Below are positions 1,503 through 64,000 of a stretch of 64,000 nucleotides of DNA, one piece after another. Made by a program: the position numbers and the translations under genes. The stretch comes from Dactylorhiza incarnata (taxonomy: Eukaryota; Streptophyta; Magnoliopsida; Asparagales; Orchidaceae). The DNA lies in assembly GCA_033032865.1 (NCBI GenBank), contig JAWHQI010000166.1, forward strand, positions 2,542,001-2,606,000, written 5' to 3'. Under the pieces are notes generated by a model, which saw only the letters and a list, made by a program, of their open reading frames with translations, was not told the origin of the DNA and made no database searches. Positions within the stretch are counted from its first letter, which is position 1. Every line of letters starts with the position of its first letter.

Positions 1503-2843
1503 TCATTCAGGAGGAGTAGGAGGAGTTTTTCTCTTTCTAGAGAATACTAAAGGGAGATCAGGTCTTTTTATAGAGGTGAGTTGTTCCTGTTCATTCAGCT
1601 CCCCCTGAGTCAAAGCAGTCTGCTCCCCCTGAGATAGAACTTCCTGCATACCTTCTTTTTCTGCTTCTTCAGCTTCTTTCTCAGCTCCAGCTTCAGCTAT
1701 GACCTGATCTGGCTCCCCCTGAGCTTCAGCTTCTTGTTCAACTTCTTTCTCTACTCTACTTGCCTCCCCTTGTAAGAGAGTTACTTGTTGTTCAACCTCT
1801 CTTGCTATAGAAAGTACATCTGTTAGCTGTTCTGTAGTATGTAGCTCAGGTACTATTTCATTCTCAATGGTCTTAGGCAGAGCACGACTATCAGATTTTG
1901 ATGTTGGAGAGGATTTGTGTGAGTGAGATTTGTGGCTGGAGAGTTGTTCTTCATCTAACTTCTCCCCCTTCTTGACCTTCTTAGCCAAGGAGGTTAAGAA
2001 TGATTTAGTAACCTTAGATGAAGACACAGAGGTTTTGAGTACTTGCACAGAGGCATTTACCCCATCCAACTGGGTTTGCATGTGTCTGATAGAGGAGTGA
2101 ATTTGAAGGTAGTGTCCATCCAGCATTTCTTGAAATCTTTGGGTTGCTGACTGGATACACTGAGTGATGAGAGTTTCAGTGGATGGAGATGTTTCAGGTT
2201 GTGTTGGTGAAGGAGATAATGGTGGAGAAGTGGTTGTTGATATATGAGGTATGTGAGATGATGTAGGTAGAGAGGATGTGATAGTAGGAGGAGGAAGAGG
2301 TGGTGATTGAATTGGTGTATGTGAAGATGTAGTTAAGGTAGGAGGTGTGAGGGTAGTGGAGACTATTGGTGTGGATGATGTTGGTAGGGAAGAAATGTCT
2401 GTATGTTGAGGAGGAGGGGAAGATGGATGCACAGGAGAATTAGGAGGAGAGGGAGTCCTTTCAGAAATGGATCTAGGCTTGGGGATTTTCCTGGTCCATT
2501 TTGAGAAGAGGGCTATGGACATCCTTTTTCCAGGAGGAATGGGAATTCCTTTTGACCTACATAGGTCAGGGAAGGAGTGAAGGAGTACCTGACTCATGAT
2601 CCTCATGAAGGCATTCTCTTTGTGGGAATATTTGTGGCCTATCATCTTCAGTAAGCAGCTGCCCCAGTCTATCTTCTTTTTCAGCACAAGGCCCCCCATA
2701 ATGTTTAGTTGATGCTTGGGCACTGCATCATGGGCAGAGATTTTGCATAGTAGTATTTTTCCGACTATGTCTGCCAAGAGCCTATATTCATCAGAGAAAT
2801 CTATTTTCTTCAGGTGGATTGGTTTATCTTTGGAGAACTTCAT
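1503..2843 (-). pseudogene. Env-position accessory ORF (aORF), C-terminal part, 446 codons
   Basis: The open frame starts MKFSKDKPIHLKKIDF. The first ~120 residues form a conserved block (DIVGK, LLCKIS, SKGIPIPP, FSKWTRKI) shared with the E3 homologue at 54.9-55.3 kb. It then has a long Pro/Ser/Thr-rich stretch (about residues 125-230), a short helical block containing FLTSLAKKVKKGEK, an acidic Glu-rich tail and a basic end SRKRKTPP. No membrane segment is visible, so an envelope role is not supported. The conserved block loosely resembles domains annotated as putative plant transposon protein, which is a weak inference. QGEL, QGEP and QGEQ peptides are encoded by CAGGGGGAGC tracts like the PPT. 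A frameshift separates this frame from the N-terminal part at 2859-3252. Function is unknown. Confidence 0.65.
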
Positions 2844-2858
2844 GATGAGTAATAGATT

Positions 2859-3252
2859 TCAGATTTCCTCAGGGGTGAGTTCCACAGGTTCATCACCTGA
2901 TAAGGGAATGATGATGGCGATTAATTTAGTTACTCTTAGAAAATAATTTACTTTCCCTTTCTGATTTGGACAAGGATAGTGTACCTGATGGAAGATCAAA
3001 AGTGTCCCTAAGGTGTTCTGCAGAGATTGAGACAGGTGTCTCATAGAGTGTTCCTGTGATCTCTCCTTGTTCAGATATTTGAGCATGATTCATTAACTCA
3101 GTGAGTTCTGTCTCTAGGAGTCTGCATCTTGTGGAAATGAGTTTGTCTAGACCAGCTTCAGTGAAGAGAGCAATGATGCTCTTATAGTTTTCGGCGGCCG
3201 CTTGGAAGGATTCAAGATCAATATCGAAACCAGAGTTGATCTTGGGAGCCAT
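2859..3252 (-). pseudogene. aORF N-terminal part of E1, frameshifted
   Basis: A 108-codon frame starts with ATG at 3252 (MAPKINSGFDIDLESF) and holds an AAAENYKSIIALF helix, then LISTRC, matching the E3 protein beginning at 54582 (MDPPKVNSRFDVDIDSF). It shifts frame before the conserved MKFSKDKP block: the continuation (LSGDEPVELTPEEI, then a stop) lies in another frame down to 2859. The shared start, order and motifs between E1 and E3 show one ancestral protein of about 550-600 residues. No catalytic motif is recognised. Confidence 0.65.
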
Positions 3253-3624
3253 TTAGGTCAGTGAAATAGAGGAAGAAATGGCTGGACTGAGAAATGAGAA
3301 GGATGAGAGATGCAGAGAGTGTGCAGATTTCTAACTGAAGATTTTATTTAAGTCAGGTGAAACGTCGAGACGAGACACAACTCGAGGTTTATTCGGTACT
3401 ACAGTAGATGTGACCGAAAATATTTTAGTATTGCCGCTCTTTTTCATGAAGTTGACGTTGCGTCGACTGGAAGTCAATGTATGCGTCGGAAATGGTTTAG
3501 GGTTTCCTATCGACGATGCGTCGATTTAGAAATCGACGTGACTTTTATTTTGTCTTGAAAATTCTAAGTTTTTCTTGAGAGATTTTTTCTTCCTAAGGTT
3601 TTCTAAGTCAGCCTTGGATTAATT
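3253..3624 (-). promoter_or_regulatory. Spacer between gag and aORF with palindromes, candidate internal promoter
   Basis: Non-coding stretch between the gag stop and the aORF ATG. It carries several CGTCGA/TCGACG half-sites (about 3425-3540), then on the minus strand a CTTAAATAAAATC TATA-like box (about 3338-3350) roughly 90 bases before the ATG, and pyrimidine-rich tracts with CTCAG. The same order occurs in the spacers of E3 (54004-54581) and E2 (59081-59580). Promoter function is inferred. Confidence 0.5.
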
Positions 3625-4629
3625 TTATAGACAATTGGATTGATTGTGCCAGCATTGTTTGGCAATGTGGCTAGGTTTATTACAGATATAACACTTGATT
3701 GTCTTTAGATTATGTGAATTTGAGTTTAGAGAGGGATAGAGATGTTGATTATGATAACAATTTTGATTGGGATAGAAATTTTGATTAGGATAACAGTTTT
3801 GAAAAGGGTAGAGATTTTGATCAGGATGAATGGGTCCTGAATGGGGTTTAAGATAGAAAATTTTTGAAGGATAGATATGTCCTGTATTTAAGTTGTTCTG
3901 AGGTTTTATGCGTCGATATCTATTTGACGTATGTTGAGAGTTGCATCGATTTATATTCGGCGCGTTCTTTAGATTGCGTTGATCTTGAATCGATGCATGG
4001 GAGTAGTTGCGTCGATTGTAAGTCGACGTAATGCTATTCATGCATCGATTTGAGGTCGAAGCATCTAAGAGATTGTGTCGAGTAGAATTCGACGTACTGT
4101 CATTCATTCGTCGATATGAAGTCGACGTAATTGTGTCTTCACAGATTTTATTCTTCCCTTTTTCTGGTTGGAGATTTATTTTTTTATGAATTGTTTCTTT
4201 TGGCCTAGTAGCCTTCTTAGGAGGAGTTTGAGAGTCTTCATCTGTATAGTATGATGTTTCATCAAAATGGTCTATCTCCTTGAAGGTGAAGTCTTCTTCT
4301 TTATTCTGTGAGTATTCTTCTAAGTTTGTTGATTTTATGGGTTTAGTAAATTTAACAGGGCTCATCCAAGCAGGTTTGGTAGATGGTATTGAACTGGTTG
4401 AGGGATCAGCCCCTAGCCCCAGATTCTTATGTCTGATTGTTTGTTTTTCAGTGATTTCTTTAAGTGTTTGGCTTCTGACTTTTATAGATTCTTCAAAATC
4501 TTTAGCCTGGGAAACCTTATTCTTAAGGAGTTGATTTTCTATTTTAGCACTTTGTATTTCCTTTTCTGTTTTATAGATTTCACACCTTAGTTCATAATTT
4601 TTTGAACATGTATCCTCTATTTTTCTCAT
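3625..4629 (-). pseudogene. gag: E1 gag, C-terminal part with second zinc knuckle
   Basis: This 334-codon frame continues in the same frame as the upstream gag ORF; one TAA and a few codons separate them. It opens with a coiled-coil-like segment (KNYELRCEIYKTEKEIQSAK and following), then a low-complexity Asn/Arg/Ser/Thr-rich middle, then a Tyr/Pro/Asn repeat (YPNQNFYPNQNCY). It ends in a CCHC zinc knuckle, CYICNKPSHIAKQC, encoded at 3652-3693. Zinc knuckles bind genomic RNA in the particle. The Asn/Arg-rich middle (3905-4130) is encoded by repeated CGTCGA and TCGACG motifs like those of the LTR, so protein and DNA signal overlap. A similar knuckle is encoded in E2 at 62988-63029. Confidence 0.75.
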
Positions 4630-36298: not shown

Positions 36299-37800
36299 TG
36301 AAAGTGCACAGTGACTCACCTAAGTATTCTCTAGAGGGGAGGTGAATAGAGATATAAAAAAGTTTTCACTAATAAGTGCACAGAAAAACAATCCTTATTA
36401 CTAGGCATCCATGATTCCAACCAGAATAAATATAATCACAGAATAATAGAAACAATCAAGAGACAAGCACAAGAAATCACAAGCACAGAAGACATAAAAG
36501 CTTTATTGGTTCCCCAAAATCTGGGTGCATCCACTCTTCTACCCCCTTGGTAGGAATTCAGTATCACAGTGCCCAAGTCTTTTGATAAGGAGACTCTTAT
36601 AACGAAGGACTGAGTCTTTTGATAAGGAGACTCTTAGAACCAAACTAGATCTTTTGATAAGGAGATCTTAAATCAAACTGAATCCTTTGAAGAGGGATTC
36701 TTAAAACTCTTTACTCAATTTACAGAAATAAGAAATAGGCTAAGCAGAAGAATAAGAAGAAGATGAAGAGTAATCTTCTGATTTGAATCCTCCTTCAGCA
36801 GTCACTGAAAATTCAAGGCATTAAGTGTTATGGATCCTTTATTAGAGAATGAATCCTTGCTTACAAGAATATGCAAGGATTATAAACACTGATCCAGTCT
36901 TGATCGCTGCATCCTTTGTTAGCTTCTTTCAGAGATGGAGGAAGAAGAAGCTTTATGCAGCTTGTAGAAGATGAAATGCTGTACAGAGATCTGTCGGGTA
37001 GGCCGAGAGTGGGAGAGATAGGAAAGAATTATTCTTGCTCCCTTTTCGAATTCTGTATGTATATTTTTTTGTCGATTCAGTGGAATTGGAGATGAATGAC
37101 TTTCCTTTTCTGATCCTTCTCCGGTTGGAATGTCCAAGAAGAATTATTTCCCTCTTTCTATCTATGTTGACAACCCGTCAATATCCTTCTAATTTCATCA
37201 CTTTTGAATCTCTGGAATTATTCTTTCTCTTCTTGTACATGTGCGACCCGTTATATTTTAAATATCTTTAATAAATATCTTCTTAATAATCATCAGAATC
37301 TATTCAAGAAAGTTTCCAATTCTTTGACTGTATTCGACGTTGCGTCGAATAACTCCTGACTTTATATCGACGCACCTTTGAATTCTACTAGAAGCATCTT
37401 TGAAATCTTCCTCAGCTTTGAATTGAACTCTGCTATCGAAGTTGCGTCGATTACTTATCGACGTATCCATCGAGATAAAGAACGTAGACTTTAAACTCTG
37501 ACTTTTCCGTCAAATACCATTCGATGTTGCGTCGACTACCAGTCTGAGTTATCTTTACTTCTATTCGAAGTTACTTAAACTTTCAATCAAAGCTACGTCG
37601 ACTTCTTTTCGACGCAAATTTAACTCAACTTATTTTTGATCTCCTTTAGACTAGACTTTGACACTCTAAGATGAATATGTTATCCTAGGACATCTAAAGA
37701 CCATATTACCCTCACTATACAACATGAGTAATAAATCCTAGAGAATGAAATAACTTTTACAGAATTTGTAAGATAAATCAAGAGGATGTTTTTCCCAACA
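36299..37800 (-). repeat. E2 3' LTR (1502 bases)
   Basis: Plus-strand ends TGAAAGTGCACAG and TTTTCCCAACA, followed by the complement of AAATAGAGGGAGATTG (polypurine tract, 37801-37816). U3 (37330-37620) is rich in CGACGTTGCGTCGA-like sites. Three TTGATAAGGAGA repeats lie at 36568-36665. The left flank is GTTGA. Confidence 0.85.
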
Positions 37801-38537: not shown

Positions 38538-40245
38538 TGTTGGGAAAAACTCATTTGATTTAACTTAACAAACTATCTACAAAGTGATTTTATCCCTTAG
38601 GTTGAATTACCCATTGTATAGTGAGGCTAATGTGGTCATTAGATGTCTTAGGATGACCCAGGGTGTCAAGACCATATCAAGAGAAGCACAATTTGGGCAG
38701 AGTTAACATTTGCGTCGAATGGAAATCGATGCAACATCCAATGGATGTCGACGCTAGTTATACTAGAAGTCCAAGCAACTCAACCTTCTGTCGAAGTTAC
38801 TCTAGTCGACGCTATGTCGAAAGGATATCGACATAGAGGCCAAGGTCCTGTCGAAGTATCTTGAGAAGTCGACGCAGCTTCTACTTCAACTCAGCGCAGA
38901 AGGAACTATCTGTCGAAGCCATCTGAAGTCGACGCAACGTCAACTACAATTCGACGCAGATAATGAAGTTCCGAGTCAAGCCCTCAACTCGACAGTTACG
39001 TCGATAAGATATCGATGTAACGTCGACAAACAAACTTCAATCAGAGCAAGAATGAATTCAAAGCCGCTCTTACAAGGAATCGAAGGTGCGTCGATAAGAG
39101 AGGAAGAGAACTCGACGCTACGTCGAATACAGTCTGAAAAGGAAACCTTTTCAGCTGTCATTTTAGACTCTCTCTCATGGCCCACAATATTGAAGACCGT
39201 TCTCCAACGGCTTAATTATTGCCTCAAATAGACAGAAGAATTAAAAGAGGACAGAAAAGCTTTCTTGGAAACAAGCTTACAGTTGGTGGACGGGTCATGA
39301 ATTGAAGATGGAAAGAAAGAGAAACTGTCTATGCAAAATACCTTTTTTTGACCTATCAGAAAGGGAAATCAATTCAAATTGAAAAGGGACAATAAAAGGC
39401 AGGAGTAAAGAGAGAAACATAGAGCATTCATCACAATCGGCTGAAGTTTTTCAATTAGGCCTTCCTCTTCTTCTTCTTCCTCCTGGAACCCTAATAGAGA
39501 AAACATAGAGAAAACAAAAGAACCGCTCTCCCTCTCTTAGAACAGAACAACTGAAGGATGCTCATCATCAATATTATATAGCAGCCAAAGTTCAATCAGA
39601 AGGAAGAGAAAGAATCTGACAATCATAGCTCCTGCAAAACATCACAATCATAAGCAAGAGTTCATCATCAACTGATCCAGTGAAAGAATATAGAAGCTGT
39701 TCTTGATACAGACTTCATAAGAATTCTGAGAACAAAATTCTTCTTCCTCCCCCTTCTTCTTTCTCCTTCTCATTCTCAACTGTAAAAGAGTTTTAAGAAT
39801 CCCTCTTCCAAAGGATTCAGTGGTACAAGATCTCCTTATCAAAAGATCTGGTTGGTTCAAGATCTCCTTATCAAAAGATCTGGTTGGTTCATGATCTCCT
39901 TATCAAAAGATCTGTGGTTATAAGAGTCTCCTTGTCAAAAGACTCATGCACAGGTGGTGCATTCCTACCAGGTGGTAGAAGAGAGAACTACCCATATTTT
40001 GGGGAACCACTATAAAATCTTTGCGTCTTCTGGTTGCTTATTTTTTGTGTTGTCCCATATAGTTTTTATTTCTTTTACTGTTTTCGTGCTTTACTTATCA
40101 GCATTAGTTTTATTCTGTGTGTGTGGAATTGTTGAAGCATAACACCTAGTGTTTTATTGTGTTTGCATAAATAGGATTGAAATATTTTTTAATCTTTATT
40201 CACCCCCCCTCTAGAGTATTCTCAGAGGCACACAGTGCACTTTCA
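38538..40245 (+). repeat. E3 5' LTR (1708 bases)
   Basis: Runs TGTTGGGAAAAAC to GCACTTTCA. The U3 palindrome cluster of CGTCGA/TCGACG lies at 38705-39125. A TATA-like AATAAAAGG lies at 39391-39399 and is conserved in the other LTR (57462-57470). AGATCT(CCTTATCAAA)AGATCT repeats lie at about 39826-39925, and seven C follow near the end. The primer site after it reads TGATATCAGAG, one base from the usual form. Confidence 0.9.
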
Positions 40246-43810: not shown

Positions 43811-45874
43811 ATGGCACAGAACAAAGAATATTCTAGCACAAGACCTCCTATGTGCTATCTTAGTGAGTTTGCACTATGGAAGGCAAGGATTAGATTGTAC
43901 ATGAATTCTATTGACGAAGAAATTTTTAATGTTATTTTGATAGGACCCCCAACACCTACAGCAGCAATAAGTGCTGAAACCACAACTAACAACAATGCTG
44001 TTCGACCTCTTGAGTGGACAGATGCACAGAAGAAGCAGAGAAGTGCTGATGCCAAACCTATGAATATTTTGGCACAAACAATGTCTGATGACATTTTCCA
44101 AAAAGTGGTGGAATGCACTTCAGCAAGAGAAATCTGGATCTCACTCAACAATATGGTTGAAGGATCAGCAGATGAAAGAAACGATAGAAGTTCTCACCTT
44201 ATCTCTCAATATGAGAACTTCAAAAAGGGAGAATCTGAGACAGTAGCTGATATGTATAATAGGCTCAGCCTCATAATCAATGAGCTGAAGACCTTGGACA
44301 AAGTGATCTCCATCACTGAGATCAATGATAAGATCCTAATGTGCTTCCCCATCACATGGGACTCTAGGATCTGGTCAATCAAGAAAGCCAGAATCCTTAA
44401 TGAGATCTCCACTGAGAGCTTATTAGGCAAACTCAAATCCTATGAGCAGCTCATCAAATCCAGGGAAGCTGAGCAATCTACTTCATCTCCAGCATCCAAG
44501 AAGGAGAGAAGCATAGCTTTTCAAGCTAAAGAAGAAGAAAAAGCTCCAAGAGATAGAGAGTTCATGAGCCTTCTAGCCAAAAGGTTCTACAAGATGGCTA
44601 AGAAGGACTTCAGAAAGAAGGACTCCAAATCAAGAGAAAAGCCAAGGTATGACAAATAAAATCCTAAGGAAATTATTTGTTATGGCCGCAGGAAACCTGG
44701 ACACATTCTGCCAGAGTGTCTAGAGAATCAGAAGAAGGAGAAGAGAAAAGAGAAAGAAGACAAGAGGCACTCCAGCAAGTCTTCCTCCCACAAACACAAA
44801 CACAAGGGAAGAGGATTCGTAGCAGAAACTTGGAGTGAAACTGAGTCAGAGTCTTCATCCAGTTCTTCTGATGATGAAGAAGAATCAAAGGAGAATGATC
44901 AGTGCTTGATGTCCATTTATGACTCAAGCAGTGAGTCAGTAAGTGTATCTTCATCCAGCTCTTCTGATGATGAAGATGATGAAGAAGAAAAGAATTTACA
45001 TGATGGCTATCAATGCCTCAGCAAACAACTCAGATGAAGAAGAATCAGAATCAGAAGCTGACAATGATGCTGATCAGGTAATCTCAAATTTTGATTTCAG
45101 TTCAATAGAATTCAAAGATGAATTCAAAGTTCTTTCTTAGACTTAATTAAATCTGAGAAGGAAATAATCTCTCTCAGAAATAAGCTGGCTGAAATGGACA
45201 AATTAAGTGAAGATAATGCTATTCTTAAGAAAGAACTGGCTGCCTCTAGAGAACATATTATTCTCAGTGAGAATAAACTATCTGAGGCTAAGAAATTTGA
45301 AGAATCCCTAAATGGGAGAAGCATCAAACTAATGGACATTACAAGCACAGTAAATGCCAGATTAAGTGGCAAACTAGGCTTGGGTGCATCATCAAGTGAG
45401 CCACCTCTGATTAAGAAAAACATACTTTCTACACCTATAAAATTCATTTATGCTAAGAGCAAAGAGGTTGTAGATGTAAATAAAAACATTTCAAGTAAGG
45501 CTGTTAAGAATAAAGGAATTCAGCAGAGTTCGTCGAACGGAGCTCGACGAAATGAATTCACTTCGTCGAACGGAGATCGACGAACTTTGAAGCCAGAATC
45601 TCTGTATATTCATTATTCGAACGGCGCTCGACGAAAGCATGTCCATTCGTCGAACAACGATCGACGAACTCAGCCCAGTTCGTCGAATGGAAAATACACA
45701 GAAAATCTGAAAAATTCCTATTCTTCACATACTTTCAATCCTTTCACTGAATGGATAATACCTCCATGGAGATATCATCCACAAGGTTATAAGGAACAAC
45801 CTGAAATGTCTATTATTTTAGAGTTTTGTGGTAAAATAAAAGGACCCAAGGTAGTCTGGGCCAAAAACAACTAG
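43811..45874 (+). pseudogene. gag: E4 gag
   Basis: ATG at 43811 (MAQNKEYSSTRPPMCYLSEF). Gag blocks: YMNSIDEEIFNVILIGPPTP, FQKVVECTSAREIWISL, YENFKKGESETVADMYNRLS, CFPITWDSRIWSI. A TAA at 44657-44659 comes just before the knuckle, CYGRRKPGHILPEC, in which the second Cys has become Arg. A Ser/Asp/Glu tail and a coiled coil follow after frameshifts (45194 on: LKKELAASREHIILSENKLS). The C-terminal part encodes repeated SSSNGARR and SSNGDRR peptides from TTCGTCGAACG and GATCGACGAA sites (45528-45690), and it ends GKIKGPKVVWAKNN. Packaging and particle formation would be its role. Confidence 0.8.
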
Positions 45875-45924
45875 TTTATTTTTCTGTTTTGCAGGTACAC
45901 AGCTAGCCAAGCAAGAATGAACAA

Positions 45925-47502: not shown

Positions 47503-47580
47503 ATGCACACTTGTTTCCTATCACAAGTTGAACCTACAACCATAAAAGATGCAGAATAAGATCCAAACTGGATTCTTGCA

Positions 47581-48174: not shown

Positions 48175-48540
48175 ACTGCGCACGATCACCGGTTCTATTG
48201 CGCACGACCACTGGTCGTGCGCCACTGATCGTGTGCACTTAACCCTTTTTTATGAGTTCTGTTTGGTGCAGTGCGCACGACCATCTACGCTAGTGCGCAC
48301 AACCACCGGTCGTGCGCCACTGTTCGTGCGCGCTTATCATCAATTTCTTGAGTTCTGTTTCAATCAGTGCGCACGACCACCTACGATAGTGCGCACGACC
48401 ACCGGTCGTGCGCCACTGGTCATGCGAACATGTTATTTCATAATTTCTGTCTTTGCAGGTTCCGTCCAGGCAAAGCGCATGATCACCGAATTCTAGTGCG
48501 CACGACCACTGGTCGTGCGCCACTGACCGTGCGCACTGTT
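48175..48540. repeat. GCGCACGACCAC / GGTCGTGCGC palindrome array in S2
   Basis: At least four complete palindromic units of the form GCGCACGACCAC(C/T)GG followed by TCGTGCGCCAC, plus half-sites. The array stops just before the TATA box. The apparent open frames here come from the repeats. Confidence 0.93.
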
Positions 48541-48552
48541 TATTCCAGCGCC

Positions 48553-48559
48553 TATAAAT
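48553..48559 (+). promoter_or_regulatory. TATA box of S2
   Basis: CCTATAAATCGACC lies about 20 bases after the last palindrome (CTGTTTATTCCAGCGCC between). It is the likely LTR core promoter. Confidence 0.65.
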
Positions 48560-49582
48560 CGACCTGCTCGCGATTTAGGTCAGATCTTCCGCATTTTTCC
48601 GCCGTTCTTCCGCCGTTCCGCGCCAGTTTCGCCCCTCCACCGCCGCCCACCATCTGGAGGTGCTCCGGGCTTGTTCTTCATGCCAATCTTGAGCCGGAGT
48701 TTCCTCTCGGCCTCCTCCTTCATCCAAGAGCTTCAAAGAGAGATCTAGCCGCCATCTCCATCGAGCAAGAGGAAGTTTGCAACCTCTACCGGATCGTGAC
48801 ACGAAGAAGACGGGTCCATTGGAGAGTCGTGACAGCTCTCTCTACCCCGGACGTAGTTGCGGACCGAGCTTGGACGCGGATTGACAACCCGACGATTCCA
48901 ACCGTGAATCTACAACGAGACTTCGGATTCGGTCGATTTCTTGCCTTATTCTTCTCTTTTTGATGTATATGTAACTAGATCTAATCATGATGATGAAGTG
49001 GCACTTGAATTAGTTATATTTACATATATATTTCATGTCTATGTGATTGTGTAATTTATCTATTTGAGTTGCTTGAGGTGCGCCGCCGTCCATTTCCATT
49101 CCGCCGTCACGTTCGTGTGCCGCACTAGCAATTGCTAGTGGCGTGCTTGTCGAAGAGGTGCTTGCGACCCTCACTCCGCTAGCCTACTCGTCCATCCGCC
49201 TACCGAAGCATGGCCTCGCGGCCCGTATTCCATCCCGCCTAACGAAGCAGTGCGCTCAAGGCCTGCACAGTTCGATTCCGCTTGCCTGCTCGTCCATCCA
49301 CCCTTTCGACGCAGCGCGCTCATGGCCTGCCTAGTCTCCATCCCGCCAAGCGAAGCATTGCATAGCGGCATTGCATAGGAGTAGTTGATAGCTTTTATTT
49401 TATTTTCCAAAAGCCAACCCAACTCCCCCGCATTCCATCCGATTTAAGGACTTCAATCCCAAGTCCTTCCTCGAAACCTAACTCCACCTTACTGTGTTCC
49501 TCAAGAGACTGACACTCGGGGATTTCCCCCATTATTATTACTTGCGCGACCGGTGCACTTGCCGAATCATCGCATCAACAAC

Positions 49583-50732
49583 CACCAGGTTTCATCTCTC
49601 CAACTCACTCCTCTTATGTATTTAAGCTTAATAAATCTCTCTATGGTCTCAAACAAGCTCCCAGAGCATGGTATGAGACCTTAGCTAGTTTTCCTTTGGA
49701 GAACAATTTCTGTAGAGGCATAGTTGATAAAACCTTATTTTTCAGGACACATAAAAATCAAACTCTACTAGTTCAAATATATGTAGATGATATTATTTTT
49801 GGCTCAACTGATTAAAATTTATGCAAAAGATTTTCTAACCTAATGCAATCTAAATTTGAAATTAGTAGTATGGATGAACTATCATACTTCCTTGGTCTTC
49901 AACTGAAGCAGACTCCAAATGACATATTCATATCACAATACAAGTATGCTAAGGAATTAATGAAAAGGTTTGGTATGTCTGATGCTTCCACCATGAAAAC
50001 ACCCATGCCCTCAAATGCTGTTGTTGATGCTGATGAATCAGGGAAACCTGTTGATCAGAAAGTATATATAGCAATTGTTGGCTCATTACTTTATTTAACA
50101 GCAAGTAGGCCTGATATAATGTTTGCTACCTGTATTTGTGCTAGGTTCCAAGTTAACCCCAAAGAATCTCACCTAATTTTACTAAAAGAATTTTGAGATA
50201 TATAAAGGGTTGTCCTAATTTAGGACTCTGGTATCCAACAACATCAGAATTTGAATTAACTGGATTCTCAGATTCTGATTATGCTGGATGCAGAGTAGAC
50301 AGGAAAAGCACATCAGGAACTTGCCAGTTTCTTGGTGATAGGCTTGTGTCTTGGTTTTGTAAGAAACAAACATCTGTGTCTACATCAACAACTGAAGCTG
50401 AATACATAGCTGCCGGCAGTTGCTGCTCACAGATATTGTGGATACAAAATCAACTCCTAGACTATGGTGTCAATCTAAATAATTCAATTATATTTTGTGA
50501 TAATACTAGTGTAATATCTATAACACAAAATCTAGTTCTCCATAGTAGGACTAAACACATAGAAATTAGGCACCACTTTATCAGAGATAATATGGTTAAA
50601 AATAAAATTTGCCTACAATTCATCTCTACTGATTTGCAAAGAGCTGACATTTTCACCAAGCCCTTGGATGAAAAGAAACATATTTTCTTTATAAATCAGA
50701 TAGGAATGATAGCTGGAGATTCAATCTGCTAA
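49583..50732 (+). pseudogene. pol: E4 RT C-terminal part and RNase H
   Basis: Resumes PPGFISPTHSSYVFKLNKSL and YGLKQAPRAWYETL, then the intact catalytic QIYVDDIIFGSTD, followed by a TAA. ELSYFLGLQLKQTPNDIFIS and GSLLYLTASRPDIMFATCIC complete RT. A frameshift near 50193 leads into RNase H: GFSDSDYAGCRVDRKSTSGT, STTEAEYIAA, ADIFTKPLDEKKHIFF with the D-E-D residues. It ends at 50732. RNase H removes the RNA strand after minus-strand synthesis. Confidence 0.87.
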
Positions 50733-51848
50733 AAATTAAGTTTTCTACTTATCCCATCTCTTCATCGAACTGAGATCGATGAAATCTAGTTTTTTGTCGA
50801 ACGGAGATCGACGAAGTCATCAAGTTCGTCGAACCGAGATCGACGAAAATCTATTTTTCGTCGAACCCGTTTTTGATGAAGCTTTTTATTTCTGATCTGT
50901 CATCATAATCAAATATTTTACTTTATTTTAACTGAATACCTACAAAAATTGTTTCTCTTCCAGTTCCTTTGCACTTGATCTCTATTCTATTTTGCAGGAA
51001 CAGTAGAAATATAAAAAATTACATCCATCCCTACCTCCTCAAAAGTCCCTTCTTCTAGGGGCCTACCTCCAGGTCTTCCTGAAACTAGGCAGGGGGAGAT
51101 GTATTGAAGAAGCTCCTTTTTGTCAGGGGAAGATACTTTCCTTTTTGACATGGGGAGTTGCTTTCTGAAGATGCTCAAGCTTCAAGAGGAAATGCCGATG
51201 AAGAAGCATGTTTTCAGTTCTATGAAGAAGCTCCATATGATGCAGTTTTTGCTCAGGGGAGATGTTCTATGAACTAGGCAAGGGGTGAAAGCTGAAGAGG
51301 CTCCAGTCTCAGGGGGAGATGCTCTCAGGCTAATATATTTTATGAAAGAGCGAAATGATGCATGAAGAAGCTACATATGTTGCAATTTCAGATGCAGTGT
51401 TTGCTCTAGCTTAATGCAAATTCAGATAAAGTTTTCATGTTCAAATTCAGTTTCAGATTATGATAGATTTAGGGGAAGATGTTATGACAGATTCAAATTC
51501 TGATTGGTAGCAAAGCAGATTAAGAAAGAATATCTGTTAGAAGCAGATATCAAATTCAGATTATAAAGCTACAGTTCAGATCAACAAATTCAGAAAGCTG
51601 AAATATAGCAGATACAGTTCAGACAATATCAGAATTCAGAAAGTCAGAAAGCAAGAATTCAGAAAGACAAAAGGTTCTGATTGTTTGTTATTATTATTTC
51701 TATTTTCATTGAAATGTTTCAGAACTCAGAGTATCATATTTTTATATCTGATGAAATATTTAAAATATATTAGATAAATATGCTCTGTTGTTATTTTTGT
51801 TTGTTTCAATTTTTGTCAAATAGTGTCCTAACCCAAATAGGGGGAGAT
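50733..51848 (+). other. E4 3' region with repeated polypurine tracts
   Basis: After RNase H come TTCGTCGAAC/GATCGACGAA pairs (50760-50880), then a series of PPT-like tracts: CAGGGGGAGATG near 51089 and 51307, CAGGGGAAGAT near 51117, CAGGGGAGATG near 51254, AGGGGAAGATG near 51469, and the functional AGGGGGAGATTG at 51839-51850. Between them GAAGAAGCTCC recurs. Multiple PPTs are a known Sirevirus trait. No coding frame is supported. Confidence 0.75.
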
Positions 51849-53547
51849 TGTTGGAACAACCCTATTATTGATTTGGGCTAGGATCACTATCTGTTTATTA
51901 GGACTAAAGTTGACCCCAATGTATAGTCAATGGGTCAAGGGTTTAGGCTATTAGAACTCAAGAAAATATTCAGGTTCTGCGTTAGACGAACTCCACACTG
52001 CGTTCGATGAATTGCTATCTGCGTTCGACAAACGGCTTGCTCTCTGCATTCGACGAATGGCATGTCAATCTGCGTTTGATGAATGGCGTGTCAATCTGCA
52101 TTCGATGAACGACGTGCTTCAATCAGCGGTCGATGAAATTATTCAGTCTCAGCGGTCGACGAAATTATCCAGGCTCAGCGGTCGACGAAATTATCCAGGC
52201 TCAGTGGTCGACAAAATTATTCAGTCTCAGTGGTCGACGATTTTGATCAGCTCAGTGGTCGACGAATTCGTCCGTTCGACGAAGTCAGTCTGCATTTGAT
52301 GAATATATTCAGATCGACGAACTCATCTCTGAGATCGATGAATCTAATTCTGTTCGACGAATTTCAATCTCAGATCGATGAATTTTCTGACAACAGATTT
52401 AAATTCAGAAGATCAGTTAATTTCTTTGAACTCAGATCGTTTACAGCAACGGATCTATATTCCAGATAAGACAAGATTTCTGCCTTACTTATTATATTCC
52501 TTTCTATTCTCTTCTTCCAAGATTATAGTCGTTGACATTCAATGGAAAAGGAACATTTCACGGAAAAGGAATTAAGTATTCTGCAGAATCGTTTTGGTTA
52601 CCTTTGCAGTCCGAAGAAGGATTTATTACAGATTATTCTATTGCTTTCTTAGATGATTTGAATTTCAAATCATAGATATAATCTAAAAGGAATAAGGAAG
52701 AAGCAGAAGTAATAGATCATTACACGACAGCATTACAGAACATATCACATATAACTGTACAGGAAACAGAAAGAGAAAAAGGAATTCGGTAGAGAAACAT
52801 TTGCAGGAAGAAGAAATAAAAAGCTAACAGATCATCTTCTTCTTCCTCAAGCAGCACTCATTCACTGAGAACATCAACTCTACTCTCCCAGTCATCAGCT
52901 ACTAGATCAGATCTTCAAAGAGCAACAATAATCTGTGGAACTTATTCTCTCAGATTCATCAGCTACAGGAAGATCAATACATCCAAGAGAAGGCTCCAGC
53001 CATCTACTGTCAAACATTTTATATCAAGCAGGGGGAGCTTTACATCATCAACAATCCACTAGAGTCTTCTCTCAGAATATTGATAGAGAAGAACTTCATA
53101 ACCCTTCTTATCCCCTCTTCTACAAGGTTTTAACTCCCTTCAAAAGTTAACCCATTGGTGGCAGGGCACCTGAACAAAAACCTGTGGTTTGGTTAGAGCA
53201 CCTGATCAAAAGCTCACTTGGTGTGTGGACACCTGATCAAAAACCCCTTGGTGTTAGGGCACCTGATCAAAAACCTAGTGGATCCTATCAAGTGTTGTAG
53301 AAGAGTAGATGTACCCAGGTTTATTGGGGAACTACTATAAAATCCTTGTGTCCTCTGTATTGTGATTGTCTGTGTACTGTGCTGTGTGCTCTCTTTGCTG
53401 TGTGCTCTCTTTGTGTTTGATTTTTTTACTCACTCAATACATATGCATATATCACTATTTTAATTCCGCTTTAAGATTAAGTGAAAAAATTTTAATACTC
53501 TATTCACCCCCCCTCTAGAGCAAATCTAAGATCTAACCTCACTTTCA
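51849..53547 (+). repeat. E4 3' LTR (1699 bases)
   Basis: Same ends as 41934-43637 with scattered point changes, including several CG-to-TG/CA changes in the U3 palindromes, and a deletion of some 55 bases near 52745. The U3 array lies at 51980-52385. Confidence 0.9.
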
Positions 53548-53851
53548 AGATAGATGAACCTAACAAAGTTAATCTGAATAAGAAAGGAAAACCCTTAGGC
53601 AAGAACAATGTAGAGAAATTAAATAACCTCAACCAAAAGGTTAAAGAAAAACCTAGGGTAATAAAATATTCTGCTGATCTTCTATATTTAGATACATTCT
53701 ATACTCATTTCAAGTGTCAAAATAATAGGTTTGAGAAACCCATTCCTTATCATCCAAAAGTGAATCATGAAAGACCCTTGTATTCCTTCATTGAACCCTA
53801 CAATGGTAAAAGCAAAGGGCCCAAGGTAACCTGGGTTCCTTCTAATGTTTG
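53548..53851 (+). pseudogene. gag: E3 gag, C-terminal end
   Basis: Resumes the frame interrupted by E4 (DRxEPNKVNLNKKGKPLGKN) and ends GKSKGPKVTWVPSNV, matching GKIKGPKVVWAKNN in E4. The LTR-type palindromes found in the gag of E1, E2 and E4 are missing here, and no second knuckle is visible. A non-coding stretch of about 150 bases follows (53852-54003). Confidence 0.65.
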
Positions 53852-54003
53852 AATTACTTGTGCAGGGTAAGGAAGGGGACTATCTAGGAGATAATGAGAA
53901 AAGGAATAAAGAACTAAACTCAATCAAGGGAGTGATTACTTCTCTTAATTCCCTTGTTATCTTTATAGTTCATTGAATCATTATCATAAACTCTATTTTC
54001 AAT

Positions 54004-54581
54004 AAATATAATTGCTGGGAAAAACAACAAGAATTTTCTAAGGAAATAGATCTGTTCATTCATAGGTGCGTCGAATAGAAGTCGACGTACCATTGACTTC
54101 TACTCGATGCTTGCATCAAGAAGCACTAAGAGTGGATAATTCGAATAGAATTCGACGCAACGTCAATTTCATATCGATACATGCGTCAACTCAATGGTCA
54201 CTGCTCAAAGTCGAGTTAGCGTCAATTGGAAATCGACATAACGTCGACAGGACTACGCCGACTTAAGGTCTGTTGAACTATCTCCAAATTACGTCGAATA
54301 CTAGTCGACGCAATGTCGATATAACAGCGCGCGCAGAACTGCTTCTAGAAGCAATCTAAACACAGCTTTGTGCGCCAAATAATAAGTTTTATCGACGGTG
54401 CGTCGACCTAAACCCTAAGTTGCGGCGATTCATCTCCTTTTAAGCAATTACATCGTCAAAATATCCGTGCTTTTGAATTTTCCTCTCCGTGCTCTCTTGC
54501 TCTCCTCTTCTCCAGCTCTCTTGCATTTTCTCCTCTCTTTCTCTCTCATTTTTCTTTGTGATTGCAGGTGATAACAATCAG
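54004..54581 (+). promoter_or_regulatory. E3 spacer: LTR-like internal promoter candidate for the aORF
   Basis: Starts ATTGCTGGGAAAAACAAC (54010-54027), close to the E3 LTR start TGTTGGGAAAAAC with its ATT flank. CGTCGA/TCGACG palindromes follow (54066-54405), then CTTTTAAGCAATTAC, a long CTCTC pyrimidine patch and TTTTTCTTTGTGATTGCAG|G just before the ATG at 54582. The E2 spacer (59081-59580, minus) has the same parts in the same order. The layout suggests its own start site, or a splice acceptor, for the aORF. Confidence 0.6.
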
Positions 54582-56391
54582 ATGGATCCACCAAAAGTAA
54601 ACTCCAGATTTGATGTGGACATCGACTCTTTCAGTGCAGCTGCCGATAGCTTTAAAGCCATTCTTGGCTTATTCCAGGATGCTGGTCTGACCAAACTGAT
54701 ATCTACTAGATGTAAGATATTTGATATAGAGCTGAATGAGTTCAAAGAAACTGTGCAGATAGGGGATGATGGATCCCTTAGTGGAAAAATCTCTGAATCA
54801 AATATATACATCACAGAAGAAATTCTAAACTAGACTTTTGATCTAGCCACTAAAAGTGTGTTAGATGAGTTATCAGGGAATGAGATCAAGGAGGCTCTTG
54901 ATATTATGAAGTTCAAGAAGGACAAGCTGATAATCTGAAGAAGATTGATCTTGGGGAAGAATATAGGTTCCTTGTTGACATAGTAGGGAAGGTATTGCTG
55001 TGTAAGATCTCATCACATGATGATGTTTCAAAGCAACAACTTCAAATTATGGGAGCTTTAGTTATTAAGAAAGGGATCAATTGGGGGAAATGTATCCTAA
55101 GGTTGATTGAGCATAAATATGCTCACAAATAAAATGCCTATATGAGGATAATGAGTCAGGTATTTCTTCACCACTATCCTGGTGTGTGTAAGTCAAAAGG
55201 AGTGCCTATTCCTCCTAGAAAGAGAATAAATATAGGAATATTCTCAAAATGGACCAGACAGATATTGAAACCTGGTCAAGCTCCAGCCTCACCTCCTCCC
55301 TCTCCTCCCCCTTAAGATTCAGAGAGACATATCCCAGATCCTCCAAGGGATAATATTCCTCCTCCTCCCTCTCAAACTCCTCTGGACACAGTTCCAGTTC
55401 TTCCTCAGGATAATGCTTTAGCTCAACCATCTCCTCTTCAACAACAACAACAACAAATCCCTCAATCCATCCCATCTTCTTCAATCCTAGAGCCATCCTC
55501 CCACATTCCTCATCAACAACCATTTATCCTAGTCTCTCAGTCTGCTCCTCCACCACCACCATCAATATATATCTCTCCTGAAACCTATAATGCACACTCT
55601 CCTATCCAAGAAGACTTCCCTCCATCACCTCCTCCATCTACCACACCTATCACTTTAATTGACCTTGATCAAGTCATCTCAATAGCAGTAGGGCTAGCTT
55701 CTAGCACCTTTGTTGATCTTCTGGCTGCTCAATCAAGAAGATTTGATAAAAAGTACTCTCAAGTGGAATCTGAACTCATGGATTCCAAAAGATCTCTACA
55801 GTGAAACAAAGACTTCATGTCCTCCTCCCTAGTGACAAAGGAGTTCTTAACCTCTATTACCAGCAATGTTAAGAAGGGGGAGAATATTCAGGAGGAGGAA
55901 AGGACTATTCCAAATTCTAGTGGCCAAGATAAAAGGAATGATGATGCAGCCCCTGATAAAGTGATCTTCCAGGGTCGAAATATCCAGGGGAGCCAATTCC
56001 AGAGCATCAGGAAGGGAAAGAAAAAGAAAATGAGCCAGTGAATCAAGTGGATTTTACTGCAGATAATCAGGGGGAGCTCCCATCTACTCAGGGGGAGCCT
56101 GTTCCTGATTTCCAGAGGAATTTGGATGAAGAGATGGTAGCTGTAGGTACTACAGTGGTTCAGTGGGAGCCTCAGGATGAAAATATGTTGGATGAAGTGG
56201 CAAAGATTGCCAAGGATGCTGCTGATATGGTTGAGCTGAATGCACAAACTCAGGGGGAACTCCTCAATGACAACATTGCTGAAGAAGCAAAAATGTCCCA
56301 TGAAGATGATGAGCCTCTGCAGATTGCTCCAAGGAAGGTTACTCCAAATGTATTTTCAAGGAAAAGAAAAACTCCTGAGAAGGAGCAATGA
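54582..56391 (+). pseudogene. E3 aORF
   Basis: ATG at 54582: MDPPKVNSRFDVDIDSF, AGLTKLISTRCKIFDIEL, then a TAG near 54832. After frameshifts the conserved core reads KKIDLGEEYRFLVDIVGK, LLCKISSHDDVSKQQL, IKKGINWGKCIL, SKGVPIPPRK, FSKWTRQILKPG, parallel to E1. A long proline-rich section follows, then SSLVTKEFLTSITSNVKKGE and a tail with NQGELPSTQGEPV and TQGELLND, ending FSRKRKTPEKEQ. At least three stops break it. The start (MxPKxNSxFD), core and end (FSRKRKTP) are kept between E1 and E3 although the middle differs. No enzyme motif or membrane segment is seen. Confidence 0.7.
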
Positions 56392-56600: not shown

Positions 56601-58325
56601 GTTGGGAAAAACTCCTTTGATTTAACTTAACAAATTATCTAAAAAGTGATTTTATCCCTTAGGTTGAATTACCCATTGTATTGTGAGGGTAATGTGGTCA
56701 TTAAATGTCTTAGGATGTCACACTCAACCTAGGGTGTCAAGACCATATCAAGAGAAACACAATTTGGGCAGAGTTAACATTTGCGTCGAATGGAAATCGA
56801 CGCAACATCGAATGGATGTCGATGCTACTTAGACTACAATTCCAAGCAACTCAATCTTCTATCGAAGTAATTCAAGTCGATGCTACATCAAAAGGATATC
56901 GACGTAGAGGCCAAGGTCCTGTCGAAGTATCATGAGAAGTCAAAGCAGATTCTACTTCAACTCAGCACAGAATGAAGTATCTATCGAAGCCATCTGAAGT
57001 CGACGCAACGTCAACTACAATTCGACGCAAATAATGAAGTTCTGAGTCAAGCCCTCAACTCGACGGTTACGTTGATAAGATATCGACGCAACGTCAACAA
57101 GCAGACTTCAATTAGAGCAAGAATAATTTCGAAGTGGCTCTTACAAGAAATCGAAGGTGCGTCGATAAGAGAGGAAGTGAACTCGACGCTACGTTGAATA
57201 CAGTCTGAAAAGGAAACCTTTTCAGCTGTCATTTTGTACCCTCTCTCATGGCCCACAATATTGAAGACTATTCTCCAACAGCTTAATTATTGCCTCAAAT
57301 AGATAGAAGAATTAAAAGAGGACATAAAAGCTTTCTTGGAAACAAGCTTACAGTTGGTGGACAGGTCGTGAATTAAAGAAGGAAAGAAAGAGAAATTGTC
57401 TATGAAAAATACCTTTTCAGGACCTATCAGAAAGGGGAATCAATTCAAATTGAAGAGGGACAATAAAAGGCAGGTGTAAAGAGAGAAACATTGAGCATTC
57501 ATCACAGTCGGCTGAAGTTTTTCAATTAGGGCTTCCTCTTCTTCTTCTTCCTCCTGGAACCCTAATAGAGAAAACATACTGAAAACATGGAGAAAACACA
57601 AGAACTGCTCTCCCTCTCTTAGAACAGAACAACTCAAGGCTGCTCATCATCAATATTATATAGCAGCCAGAGTTCAATCAGAAGGAAGAGAAAGGATCTG
57701 ACAATCATAGCTCCTGCAAAAAATCAAAATCATAAGCAGGAGTTCATCATCAACAGATCCAGTGAAAAAATATAGAAGCTTTTCTTGATGCATGCTTCAT
57801 AAGAATTCAGAAAACAAAATTCTTCTTCCCCCCCCTTCTTCTTTCTCCTTCTCATTCTCAACTGTAAAAGAGTTTTAAGAATCCCTCTTCCAAAGGATTT
57901 AGTGGTTCAAGATCTCCTTATCAAAAGATCTGGTTGGTTCAAGATCTCCTTATCAAAAGATCTGGTTGGTCCATGATCTCCTTATCAAAAGATCAGTGGT
58001 TCTAAGAGTCTCCTTGTCAAAAGACGCAGGCACGGGTGGTACATTCCTACCAGGTGGTAGAAGAGAGGACTACTCACATTTTGGGGAACCTCTATAAAAT
58101 CTTTGTGTCTTCTGGTTACTTATTTTCTATGCTGTCCCATATAGTTTTTATTTCTTTTACAGTTTTCCTGCTTAACTTACCAGCACTAGTTTTATTCTGT
58201 GTGTGGAATTGTTGAAGAATAACACCTAGTGTTTTATTGTGTTTGCTCAAATATGATAGAAATAGCTTTTAATCTCTATTCACCCCCACTCTAGAGTATT
58301 CTCAGAGGCACACAATCCACTTTCA
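56601..58325 (+). repeat. E3 central LTR (1725 bases), shared by two tandem units
   Basis: Follows AAATAGGGGAGAT (polypurine tract, 56588-56600). Ends TGTTGGGAAAAAC and CCACTTTCA. It is nearly identical to 38538-40245 with point changes. Directly after it comes a primer-site-like TGGTACCAGAGG (58328) and a new gag, so it serves as 3' LTR of one unit and 5' LTR of the next. Confidence 0.9.
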
Positions 58326-58425
58326 ATTGGTACCAGAGGGAGGTTGATCATTAAAAGGTTAACACCTTGATAAAAAAGGACCTCTTACTCTTATCTCTTT
58401 ATTTTAAATCTATTTTATAAAGAAA

Positions 58426-59080
58426 ATGAGTTCTAAGGATTATGCTTCTACAAGACCCCCAGTGTGTAAGTTGAATAAGTTCACACTCTGGAAGGCCAGA
58501 ATAAGGCTCTATATGAATTCCATTGATGAAGACATCTATAATATCCTTCTCACAGGTCCTCCAGCTCCAGTCAGACAAAAGGCAGGAGAATCCTCAACAA
58601 CTGAGGCTGCCCCAAGAAGTGAATGGACAGAAGCTGAGAAGAAGGTCAAGGCATGTGATGCCAAGGCCATGAACATTCTGGTTTCAACAATGTCAGATGA
58701 CATTTTCCAGAAGGTTGCTGAATGCCAATCAGCAAAGGATATCTGGGATTCTCTCACCAGAATGGTGGAAGGAAGATCAGATGAAAGAAAGGACAGAAAG
58801 TCCCTTCTCATATCCCAGTATGAGAACTTTCAGAAGAAAGCTGATGAATCTGTTGCTGATATGTATGACAGATTCAACATTATCATAATGAGCTCAGAGG
58901 CTTGGACAAGGAAATATCCTTGACTGGAATTAATGATAAAATCCTCATGTGCTTCCCTAGCTCATGGGATTCAAGGATCTGGGCAATCAGAGAGTCCAGG
59001 TGCCACAGAGAAATCTCTACTGAAGCTTTGGTAGGAAAGCTTAAGTCATATGAGATGCTTTTGAAGAACAGGGCTGAGTC
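58426..59080 (+). pseudogene. gag: E3 second-unit gag, truncated
   Basis: ATG at 58426: MSSKDYASTRPPVCKLNKFT, LWKARIRLYMNSIDEDIYNI, IFQKVAECQSAKDIWDSL, SLLISQYENFQKKADESVAD. One base is missing near 58885 (NIII(N)ELRGLDKE) and the other frame carries LRGLDKE-type wording to CFPSSWDSRIWAI and LKSYEMLLKNRAES. Homology stops at 59080, before the knuckle. It is better preserved than the first copy (TGG instead of TAG at the third block). Confidence 0.8.
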
Positions 59081-59580
59081 GATTTCCAAGTCGATTACTT
59101 CAAGGATGTCTCCATTAGATGGGATTGATTGTCTATGTGTACCTACAAAGAAGAGAGAAGATAAGAGTAGAAAAACAAGAAAATAGGAGAGCAAGAGGGA
59201 GAGAATTTTAAAGTATAATGAAGACTAACGGTTGTGTTGATTTTAGAAGATGATTCGTCATAACTTAGGGTTGTACTCCAAGCAATGTCAAAAAGAAGTA
59301 GATTCAGCGCGCCAAAATAGGTTGAAGTATCTTCTAGAAGCAAAGTCTGCGAGCGCTCGAAAAGTTGACATTGCGTCAAGTGGAAATCGACATGCCTTCG
59401 AATAAAAGCAGCAACTATTGAGTCGGCACATACGTTGAGTGCTATTCGAATTAACTATCCCAGACAGCTCTCAAATCTAACATCGAGTAGAAATCGACGG
59501 TGCATCAATTTGTATTCGACACAGCCCAGAATAAACTATAATATTTTTCTCAAAATTTTTTGCTGTTTTTCCCAACAATA
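59081..59580 (-). promoter_or_regulatory. E2 spacer and aORF start: LTR-like internal promoter candidate
   Basis: On the minus strand, after the RNase H end, it reads ATTGTTGGGAAAAACAGC (about 59578-59561), the LTR start of this group. TCGAATACAAATTGATGCAC and other CGTCGA-type sites follow, then TTGCTTCTAGAAG (shared with E3), AACCCTAAGTTATG (shared), TATACTTTAAAA, CTCTCCCTCTTGCTCTCC and TTCTTCTTTGTAG|G. A degenerate aORF start, GGAGACATCC...GTAATCGACTTGGA, corresponds to E3 54584-54625. E3 cuts it at 59080. Confidence 0.6.
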
Positions 59581-62814: not shown

Positions 62815-64000
62815 CTACCACTGATGGTTTATGGTAGAATAGTCTCTTTTCTACACATAGATTTAAACATTAACATGTACCCTCACTTGCCGGGTCCCTT
62901 TCTTCTACCATCATAAGGAGTTATGAAAGAATAAGTTGGTCTTTCAGGATACCCCTTAAGTTAAAGAAGTGTTGGTTTATTATACCAACAATGTTTTGCC
63001 TTATGCCCAATTTTGGAACAATAATAACATTTAGAATTGAAGTGAGAAGTGAGAGACGAAAATCAAAATGTATTAAAAACATTTTATAAAAACATATGTC
63101 GAGAAGAAGTCGACGCATCTCTAGAGTTGCATCGAAAGTAATTCGACGTGTCTGCATAGTTGCGTCGATAATAAGTCGATACAGAATGCTGGTTGCATTG
63201 AGTGTTATTCGACGCATCTTCATTCCTGCTTTGTGTTGATGTCTAAGCACTTTCAGAACTCTGTTGAGTTTCATTTGACATCTTTAAAGTTGCGTAGAGT
63301 TCTATTTGATGCATAATTCCTTTTATTAAAAATCTAATTGTTATTGATTGATTTTTCTAGAAGATGTTTGCCTAGAATTCCCTTTTGATCATTAATGTTT
63401 ACCCTATTAAATACAGTGACTTTATCAAAAAGATTATCCAGTTCTCCATAAGATTCTATATTGTGATTTAATTGCTTCTCACTGGATCTAATAAATACTA
63501 TAAGACTCTCCCAAGCAGGTTTGCTGGATGCAAGATATTTAAATCTCATAGAGAGATTTTCTTTGATATCTGTTAGCTTCTGACTCCTCCCATTGAGTGA
63601 GTCTTCAAAGGCCTTTACCTTTGCAAGCTTTTCCTTTAATATTAAATTTTCAGCAGTTAATTTATTTATTTCTATTTCCTTCTTATATACCTCACCCCTT
63701 AATTCATAATTATCATAATATATATCATCTTCCTTAAGATCTTCTAATTTTTTCTAAGTGTTTTAATTTCTTCTTAAGCTTTTAGATAATCATTACAAAA
63801 TTCTTTAAAACAATTTTGAATTCACCTGAAGAAAAATCAAAGTCATCAAAGAGAGATACTTGATCTTCCTCAGAGGAATCTTCCAATGTCATCAGACAGG
63901 CTTCCTCAGCAACAGTTTCTTCATCACTTTCAGATGAAGAGCATGACTCAGATTTTGAGTCAGTCTAGGTTTCAGCTATGAAACCTCTTCCTTTCTTCTT
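62815..64000 (-). pseudogene. gag: E2 gag, C-terminal half
   Basis: Second zinc knuckle CYYCSKIGHKAKHC at 62988-63029. Upstream in the gene lies a stretch coded by palindromic sites (63095-63320: ATGTCGAGAAGAAGTCGACG and similar). Further up, SKPAWESLI and a conserved GRSQKLTDIKENLSMRF-like segment read near 63540-63600, then a coiled coil (63600-63800) and the acidic Ser/Glu tail near 63850-63980. Several stops and shifts are present. The first knuckle and N-terminus lie beyond the window. Confidence 0.7.

Follow-up and report, generated by a model that had tools for sequence, protein, structure and literature searches.

Nested Ty1/copia elements and the aORF

The 64-kb window, that is, the whole stretch of DNA analysed here, reads on self-comparison and sequence inspection (the basis of our element map) as a nest of Ty1/copia elements, designated E1, E2, E3 and B, with the following parts.

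7378-6122 and 1313-29, minus strand: LTRs of E1, 94% identical (self-comparison and sequence reading)
1503..3252, minus strand: aORF of E1, including a 446-residue open part at 2843-1503
36299..37799, minus strand: 3' LTR of E2, palindrome array at about 37640-37310 (self-comparison, sequence reading, box count)
63989-59110, minus strand: gag, pol and linker of E2, the 5' LTR and leader lying outside the window
59115-59113, minus strand: ATG of the E2 aORF (hand count)
38539..40245, plus strand: 5' LTR of E3, palindrome array at about 38690-39150 (self-comparison, sequence reading, box count)
54582..56391, plus strand: aORF of E3, in an envelope-like position and now with stops and frame changes
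56601..58325, plus strand: 3' LTR of E3, palindrome array at about 56760-57220, with the PPT immediately 5' (self-comparison, box count)
About 41934-43638 and 51850-53548: LTRs of B, 91% identical, nested in E3 (self-comparison)

E2 is interrupted by E3 (self-comparison and sequence reading), and the 92% match between the two E3 LTRs extends into the start of gag (self-comparison). While pol is present in E2 and B, self-comparison detected no match to either pol in E1 or E3, which kept gag and aORF; these are two non-autonomous elements that retain the same 3' module. The pol-less E3 (40246-54003) and E1 (6121-3625) differ in their break points after gag. Beyond the E3 3' LTR, the stretch 56601-59080 includes a second gag start, 92% like 38537-40995, which stops abruptly at E2 sequence as a truncated tandem, with some of the E2 aORF apparently lost. 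The pol of B holds an insert of ~1.66 kb (47915-49577) that E2 does not have; flanked on both sides by ACAAC, with TG..CA ends and four palindrome units like GTGCGCACGACCACCGGTCGTGCGC followed by TATAAA, it looks like a solo LTR left by a different CpG-rich element. The poly-C integrase-signal region with which the E1 5' LTR ends (6083-6126) holds a run of 44 C, versus 10 in the 3' LTR.

A Pfam domain scan found PF14223 in the gag ORFs of E1, E3 and B and PF07727 in the pol ORFs of B and E2; the gag and RT domains are copia-type, and the placement within Sirevirus is by sequence characters. The PPT AGGGGGAG with an AT/TG junction occurs in E1 and B, with TAGGGGAG in E3 and AGAGGGAG in E2; the PBS ATTGG-TATCAGAGC is exact in E1 and near in B and E3 (the 5' end of E2 is outside the window); and an inverted repeat surrounds the PPT in all four folded 3' LTR junctions (E1, E2, E3, B). 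The PBS, PPT with AT/TG, poly-C signal and 3' LTR-junction inverted repeat are among the Sirevirus signs listed by PMC2829016. Together with the copia gag and RT domains, these characters lead us to regard the elements as Sireviruses (Ty1/copia, SIRE lineage). A search with RT returned 7993 matches, the organisms named among the best 120 being plants, and no relatives were found among viral contigs.

In the E1 aORF the N-terminal part that starts at ATG 3252 is not in a single open frame with the 446-residue part; in E2 the frame stops six codons after the ATG, and E3 sequence starts soon after. The E1 and E3 products align from residue 3 after the ATG (46% identity over 90 residues, 67% over 114), with Ks 2.35 and Ka 0.44 over 82 codons and Ks 2.13 and Ka 0.20 over 106 codons. 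Near saturation such Ks values lack precision, yet Ka/Ks stays far under 1. This ratio and the alignment from the ATG indicate that the aORF is a real, once-selected gene starting at the ATG after the spacer. It is retained in both pol-less elements. In the pieces tested (parts of the E2 and E3 ORFs being lost or broken) no transmembrane segment was evident, the best 19-residue hydropathy being 1.16 in the 446-residue part of E1, 1.33 in the E2 tail and 0.79-0.86 in three other pieces. A low-confidence structural model of the E1 part (mean pLDDT 50) has long helices at residues 221-273, 276-290, 330-373 and 384-420. Near the C-terminus the motif VFSRKRKTP, which resembles a nuclear localisation signal, is identical in E3 (56350-56376) and E1 (1547-1521, minus strand), and the E2 tail has PFQKKRK. 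Scanned against Pfam, the aORF pieces gave no match above the curated cut-off and no DNA-binding domain, and two protein searches (7988 and 80 candidates) returned no homologue at E up to 0.001.

Anatomy of the spacer before the aORF

Upstream of the aORF lies a spacer with several recognizable parts, some of them recurring elsewhere in the elements.

54011..54025, plus strand: E3 spacer head, matching the PPT-LTR junction or LTR start (ATTGYTGGGAAAAAC) at 14/15 positions (mismatch search)
54040..54430, plus strand: E3 pre-aORF palindrome (RM) array and CpG island, CpG observed/expected 1.79, 33 CpGs in 391 nt
54410..54418, plus strand: AAACCCTAA box, presumably telo-box-like, of which AACCCTAA is also in the E2 spacer
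54478..54557, plus strand: CT-rich tract before the aORF (pyrimidine scan)
54560..54568, plus strand: acceptor-like GATTGCAG/G, its AG ending at 54567, 14 nt 5' of the ATG
59110..59580, minus strand: E2 spacer, with head at 59579-59565, array at 59540-59280, CT tract and TTTGTAG/G
63090..63240, minus strand: E2 array in the gag 3' coding region (box count, CpG)
3355..3545, minus strand: E1 pre-aORF palindrome array (sequence reading, box count)
3890..4150, minus strand: E1 array in the gag 3' coding region, CpG observed/expected 2.23
45510..45710, plus strand: B array in the gag 3' coding region, CpG observed/expected 2.14
50750..50997, plus strand: B linker, with array at 50750-50890 and then TTTTGCAG/G; no match to the E1 aORF

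A sequence-only reading of this DNA had proposed that the spacer opens with a near-copy of the element's own LTR start and continues with LTR-type palindromes, a pyrimidine patch and an acceptor-like site, in the same order in E2, and this description holds in nearly every particular. The near-copy is there, although it begins at 54011 and not at 54004: the E3 head, ATTGCTGGGAAAAAC, differs at one of 15 positions from the E3 3' LTR junction at 56598, and the E2 head (59579-59565, minus strand), about 42 nt past the pol stop by hand count, is an exact 15/15 copy of the LTR junction, AT/TG attachment site included. At two or fewer mismatches the whole window holds five such sites, namely three LTR starts and the two spacers, versus a mean of 0.32 and a largest value of 3 in 100 shuffles; a 3-Mb Markov-2 simulation gave no match at one or fewer mismatches and seven at two or fewer. 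The interiors of E1 and B contain no copy of their own LTR start at up to 3/15 mismatches.

The palindromes share the form CGTCGA-N7-TCGACG, mostly 19 bp, and were counted as CGTCGA-N(5-9)-TCGACG with at most two mismatches. On this count E3 has 5 and 6 boxes in its LTRs and 5 in the spacer; E2 has 4 in the LTR, 4 in the gag stretch and 2 in the spacer; E1 has 4 and 2 in the LTRs, 7 in gag and 2 in the spacer; and B has 4 in gag, 4 in the linker, 1 and 0 in the LTRs and 1 in pol. None occurs in either E3 gag part, the E3 aORF, the E2 pol, the E2 aORF tail or the E1 aORF, and 28 kb of other sequence (8000-36000) holds 4 against 4.5 expected. The spacer counts of E3 (200 shuffles, mean 0.23, maximum 2) and E2 (mean 0.04, maximum 1) thus exceed every shuffle, as do those of E1 and B (maximum 1 each), bearing out the palindromes of the earlier description. 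B LTRs carry, by eye, a related half-site form, GTTCGACGAAC, in place of the box.

In E1, E2 and B the arrays also occupy a third site, the 3' part of the gag coding region, where they are CpG-rich amid CpG-poor gag and, by eye, share one common frame, xCG TCG Axx xxx xxT CGA CGx; some box starts in the E1 gag array are 33 nt or a multiple apart. No array was found in the gag parts of E3. The gag and linker arrays of B have one core in common. Homogenisation of boxes within elements was considered and rejected: a label-permutation test over 11 arrays gave p 0.017 (5000 permutations) but was driven by B, and same-element identity without B was 0.47 versus 0.50.

The alignment between the spacers of E2 and E3 takes in the head, the boxes, AACCCTAA, the CT tract and the acceptor; AAACCCTA is also present in the E1 spacer at 3505, but lies there between boxes. 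Homology of the E1 and E3 spacers over their full length was considered and rejected, the score being marginal (173.5 against 200 permutations with mean 143.8 and maximum 178). Within the CT tract, the CTCTC patch of the earlier description, pyrimidines make up 90% of a 60-nt stretch in both E3 and E2, which is the 99.98th percentile of the window (99.8 in E1, 97.0 in B). The acceptor-like sites are TGATTGCAG/G ending at 54567 in E3 (TTGCAG/G, 14 nt before the ATG), TTTGTAG/G at 59143 in E2 and TTTTGCAG/G at 50997 in B; out of 3582 YAG sites on the two strands only seven belong to this class, counting these three, and 56 sites qualify as any YAG/G with 15/20 pyrimidines. E1 has no TTTGYAG/G at the matching place; it does have YAG sites at 3287 and 3282, with pyrimidine tracts.

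CpG is concentrated in the arrays: 98 of the 119 CpGs of E3 fall within 1464 of its 8168 nt, and the corresponding counts are 90 of 110 in E1, 48 of 77 in E2 and 118 of 267 in B, the upper spacers of E1 and E2 being taken whole as array. In B, 124 CpGs lie between the gag array and the end of pol, a stretch that holds the CpG-rich insert. The observed/expected ratio is about 1.5-2.2 inside arrays, 0.04-0.09 where E1 and E3 encode gag and the aORF, 0.18 in the remainder of the E3 LTR and 0.61 in the E3 CT tract. The enrichment is partly by construction, since arrays are delimited by boxes and boxes contain CpG; the independent fact is the CpG emptiness of E1 and E3 outside the arrays.

Origin and possible function of the spacer

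The proposal that the spacer is a captured piece of U3 was not supported by comparison with the LTRs. Unmasked, the E3 spacer scores 36-45 where shuffle maxima are 29-36, exceeding all shuffles for 5/5 E-type LTRs though not for the two B LTRs, and the E2 spacer does so for 2/5 E-type LTRs; reverse-strand scores are sometimes equally high, as palindromes would lead one to expect. With the head and box cores masked, the fraction of 100 shuffles that reach the score is 0.06, 0.21, 0.24 and 0.44 for E3 and 0.44, 0.68, 0.03 and 0.02 for E2, so that 6/8 comparisons are at shuffled level and 2/8 are marginal (<0.05). The order of parts along U3 is not significant in E2 (0.08-0.53 of 200 block permutations reach the score) and weak in E3 (0.00-0.055, or 0.035-0.145 with the head fixed). 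Among the E1-E3 spacers, box cores are closer to one another (0.59-0.64) than to those of their own LTRs, the value for E3 being 0.53, with E1 and E2 spacer-LTR values below 0.53 and outside the best 12 pairs listed (E1 spacer and B LTR being represented by one box each, and each LTR pair by one LTR). Given no consistent masked residual, weak order and spacer cores closest to one another, the spacer appears to have been inherited with the element and not freshly captured from its own LTR. An absence of LTR similarity past the first ~15 bases, which would speak against capture, was thus largely what we found, the palindrome boxes excepted. We conclude that the spacer has its box type in common with U3 and carries in addition a short terminal tag of LTR-start sequence. 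Of the suggested LTR-derived promoter, then, a promoter-like, CpG-rich spacer is supported, but its capture from U3 is not: beyond the first 15-16 nt only boxes were found common to the two.

The analysis establishes how the spacer is built, that this is not due to chance, that E2 and E3 have conserved it, how much CpG it holds and that the aORF was once under selection. In our judgement the spacer is probably, if by no means certainly, a pre-envelope cis-regulatory island of a Sirevirus, and likely an internal promoter or enhancer of the aORF. Palindromic boxes of the LTR U3 kind would bind a factor, and the array would act as promoter or enhancer; a separate aORF mRNA might start in the CT tract or just 5' of it, the tract then serving as leader, and the acceptor may serve to splice out a small intron in that leader or be used by a spliced transcript. 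Candidate short-intron donors (6/8 to AGGTAAGT) lie at 54066 and 54268 in the E3 spacer and at 59433 in the E2 spacer. The island would have come down with the element by inheritance. Against a promoter are the arrays that E1, E2 and B carry within coding parts of gag, where one is unexpected; the retention of array and acceptor in B without an aORF match; and the absence from E3 (54381-54581) of any TATAWAW at one or fewer mismatches, one-mismatch sites numbering 2 in E2, 3 in E1 and 1 in B. The gag arrays fit poorly with a pure promoter role, and so a wider role of the boxes, for example in anti-silencing, is conceivable.

The main rival, doubtful in our view though to be taken seriously, is that the aORF is expressed by splicing of an LTR-initiated transcript from an upstream donor to TTTGYAG/G or TTGCAG/G before the ATG. 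The infrequency of such acceptor-like sites with pyrimidine tracts, their matching place in E3 and E2 and their position after the boxes in B agree with this, as do one good donor in the B leader (43715, 7/8), two donor-like sites close to where E3 gag ends (53826 and 53867, 6/8) and the precedent of env-like genes, for which splicing has been predicted in BAGY2 and Athila (PMC2829016). Yet the leaders of E3 and E1 hold no donor reaching 6/8 (that of E2 lies outside the window), TTTGYAG/G is missing from that place in E1 even though its aORF is conserved, and the tract is of the CTCTC kind, rich in C and not in T. Such a tract is more like a plant 5' leader. It is unlikely that the head is a relic of an ancestral 3' LTR that lay directly after pol before the aORF was there, the spacer being decayed U3 with its promoter kept. 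The exact 15-nt junction with AT/TG in E2 would then lie after pol at a distance near the mean linker length of 78 bp in classic copia elements (PMC2829016), the box order of the E3 spacer against the E3 3' LTR is reached in 0/200 full permutations (0.045 with the head kept), and the unmasked E3 scores also count in favor; the loss of similarity on masking in 6/8 comparisons, the order in E2, the E2 scores for only two E-type LTRs and the equally high reverse-strand scores all weigh against it. Furthermore, the PPT octamer is absent from the spacer head, the flanking inverted repeat of a true PPT/LTR junction appears around it in the E3 fold but not in that of E2, and the interiors of E1 and B lack a copy of their own LTR start.

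It seems quite unlikely that the arrays act on RNA, as packaging or strand-transfer hairpins or sources of small RNA, or are by-products, with no role in aORF transcription. All three kinds of array site would be in genomic RNA, and the three folded arrays are more stable than shuffles (z -4.8 for the E3 spacer, -6.4 for E1 gag and -5.0 for B gag), but palindromes fold well by construction, and selection on RNA hairpins was rejected as a candidate: over 12 arrays (boxes with at most four mismatches), stem decay showed no preference for G-U tolerant changes (C>T 48 versus G>A 72), contrary to expectation for RNA stems. It is tempting to speculate, although we consider it very improbable, that the aORF product, instead of being an envelope, works in the nucleus as a factor of the element's own, one that would bind the boxes and hold all three islands open and CpG-intact; it would be a retrotransposon counterpart of VANC, turned on by way of the spacer with its boxes, and pol-less elements might retain it because the entire family is activated by it. 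In its favor, no other parts of E1 and E3 come near the boxes in CpG content, B gag and linker share a core, and the aORF pieces combine a conserved VFSRKRKTP with no transmembrane segment. Against it, boxes occur where the ORF does not, in B and in ENV-less Sireviruses described in print, and no DNA-binding domain was found in the pieces scanned.

Relation to known systems

Returning to the favored reading of the spacer as a cis-regulatory island, the sequence-only reading held that an LTR piece captured to drive a third ORF would be an unusual design among retroelements, but a promoter-like island before the envelope-like ORF has already been published for Sireviruses (PMC2829016) and is therefore not new. 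Bousios et al. (2010, PMC2829016) described box clusters and CpG islands upstream of ENV in nine Sireviruses and read the boxes as support for an internal promoter, an idea they credit to Peterson-Burch and Voytas (2002), the promoter itself not having been identified. Stop-codon suppression and an internal promoter are both listed as expression modes in PMC3414828, by whose account the function of Sirevirus envelope-like ORFs was unproven, and heterogeneous extra 3' ORFs occur in 74% of SIRE elements (PMC6317226). Outside LTR and ENV, the portion of PMC2829016 covered here gives predicted CpG islands only for the pol of Osr9 and Osr8. In the literature searched, covered portions of PMC2829016, PMC3414828 and PMC6317226 included, we found no report of an LTR-start copy at the head of such a spacer, of box arrays in Sirevirus gag coding sequence or of linker boxes and an acceptor in an element without a detected aORF.

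Among other systems, the spliced env-like mRNAs of BAGY2 and Athila (PMC2829016) recall the acceptor-like site before the third ORF here, but those elements are Ty3/gypsy, and neither E3 nor E1 has a suitable leader donor. SIRE1, with stop-codon suppression, shares the lineage and an envelope-like ORF after pol (PMC2829016); unlike in SIRE1, pol and aORF of E2 are parted by a spacer of ~0.5 kb with stops in each frame. A likeness by description, not by sequence, exists with an unrelated element. Foamy virus has a second, internal promoter that drives a late ORF. VANDALs, which are DNA transposons, offer a further parallel. Their VANC system pairs in-element tandem-repeat targets that vary among relatives with an element-encoded extra protein (PMC5735166, PMC10398659); the likeness to the aORF rests on layout, no Pfam or protein homology having been found.

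The closest match is with the Sirevirus RM clusters, which likewise place palindromic boxes in U3 and in the stretch before the envelope-like ORF, with CpG islands and a proposed internal promoter (PMC2829016). There the core is CGG-CCG, whereas E1-E3 have CGTCGA..TCGACG without it, Tnd-1 being the exception in that work. In the portion covered, the four ENV-less RM elements have a linker without boxes, whereas B has linker boxes with no envelope-like ORF detected. The LTR-start copy in the spacer (E3, E2) and the third array in gag coding sequence further set the present elements apart from those clusters. The locus offers a testable version of the proposed Sirevirus internal promoter: aORF and island have both been retained in two elements that lack pol, CpG is abundant in the island but almost missing from the rest of these elements, and boxes occur also in gag, so that promoter, anti-silencing and RNA-signal readings should be separable by experiment.
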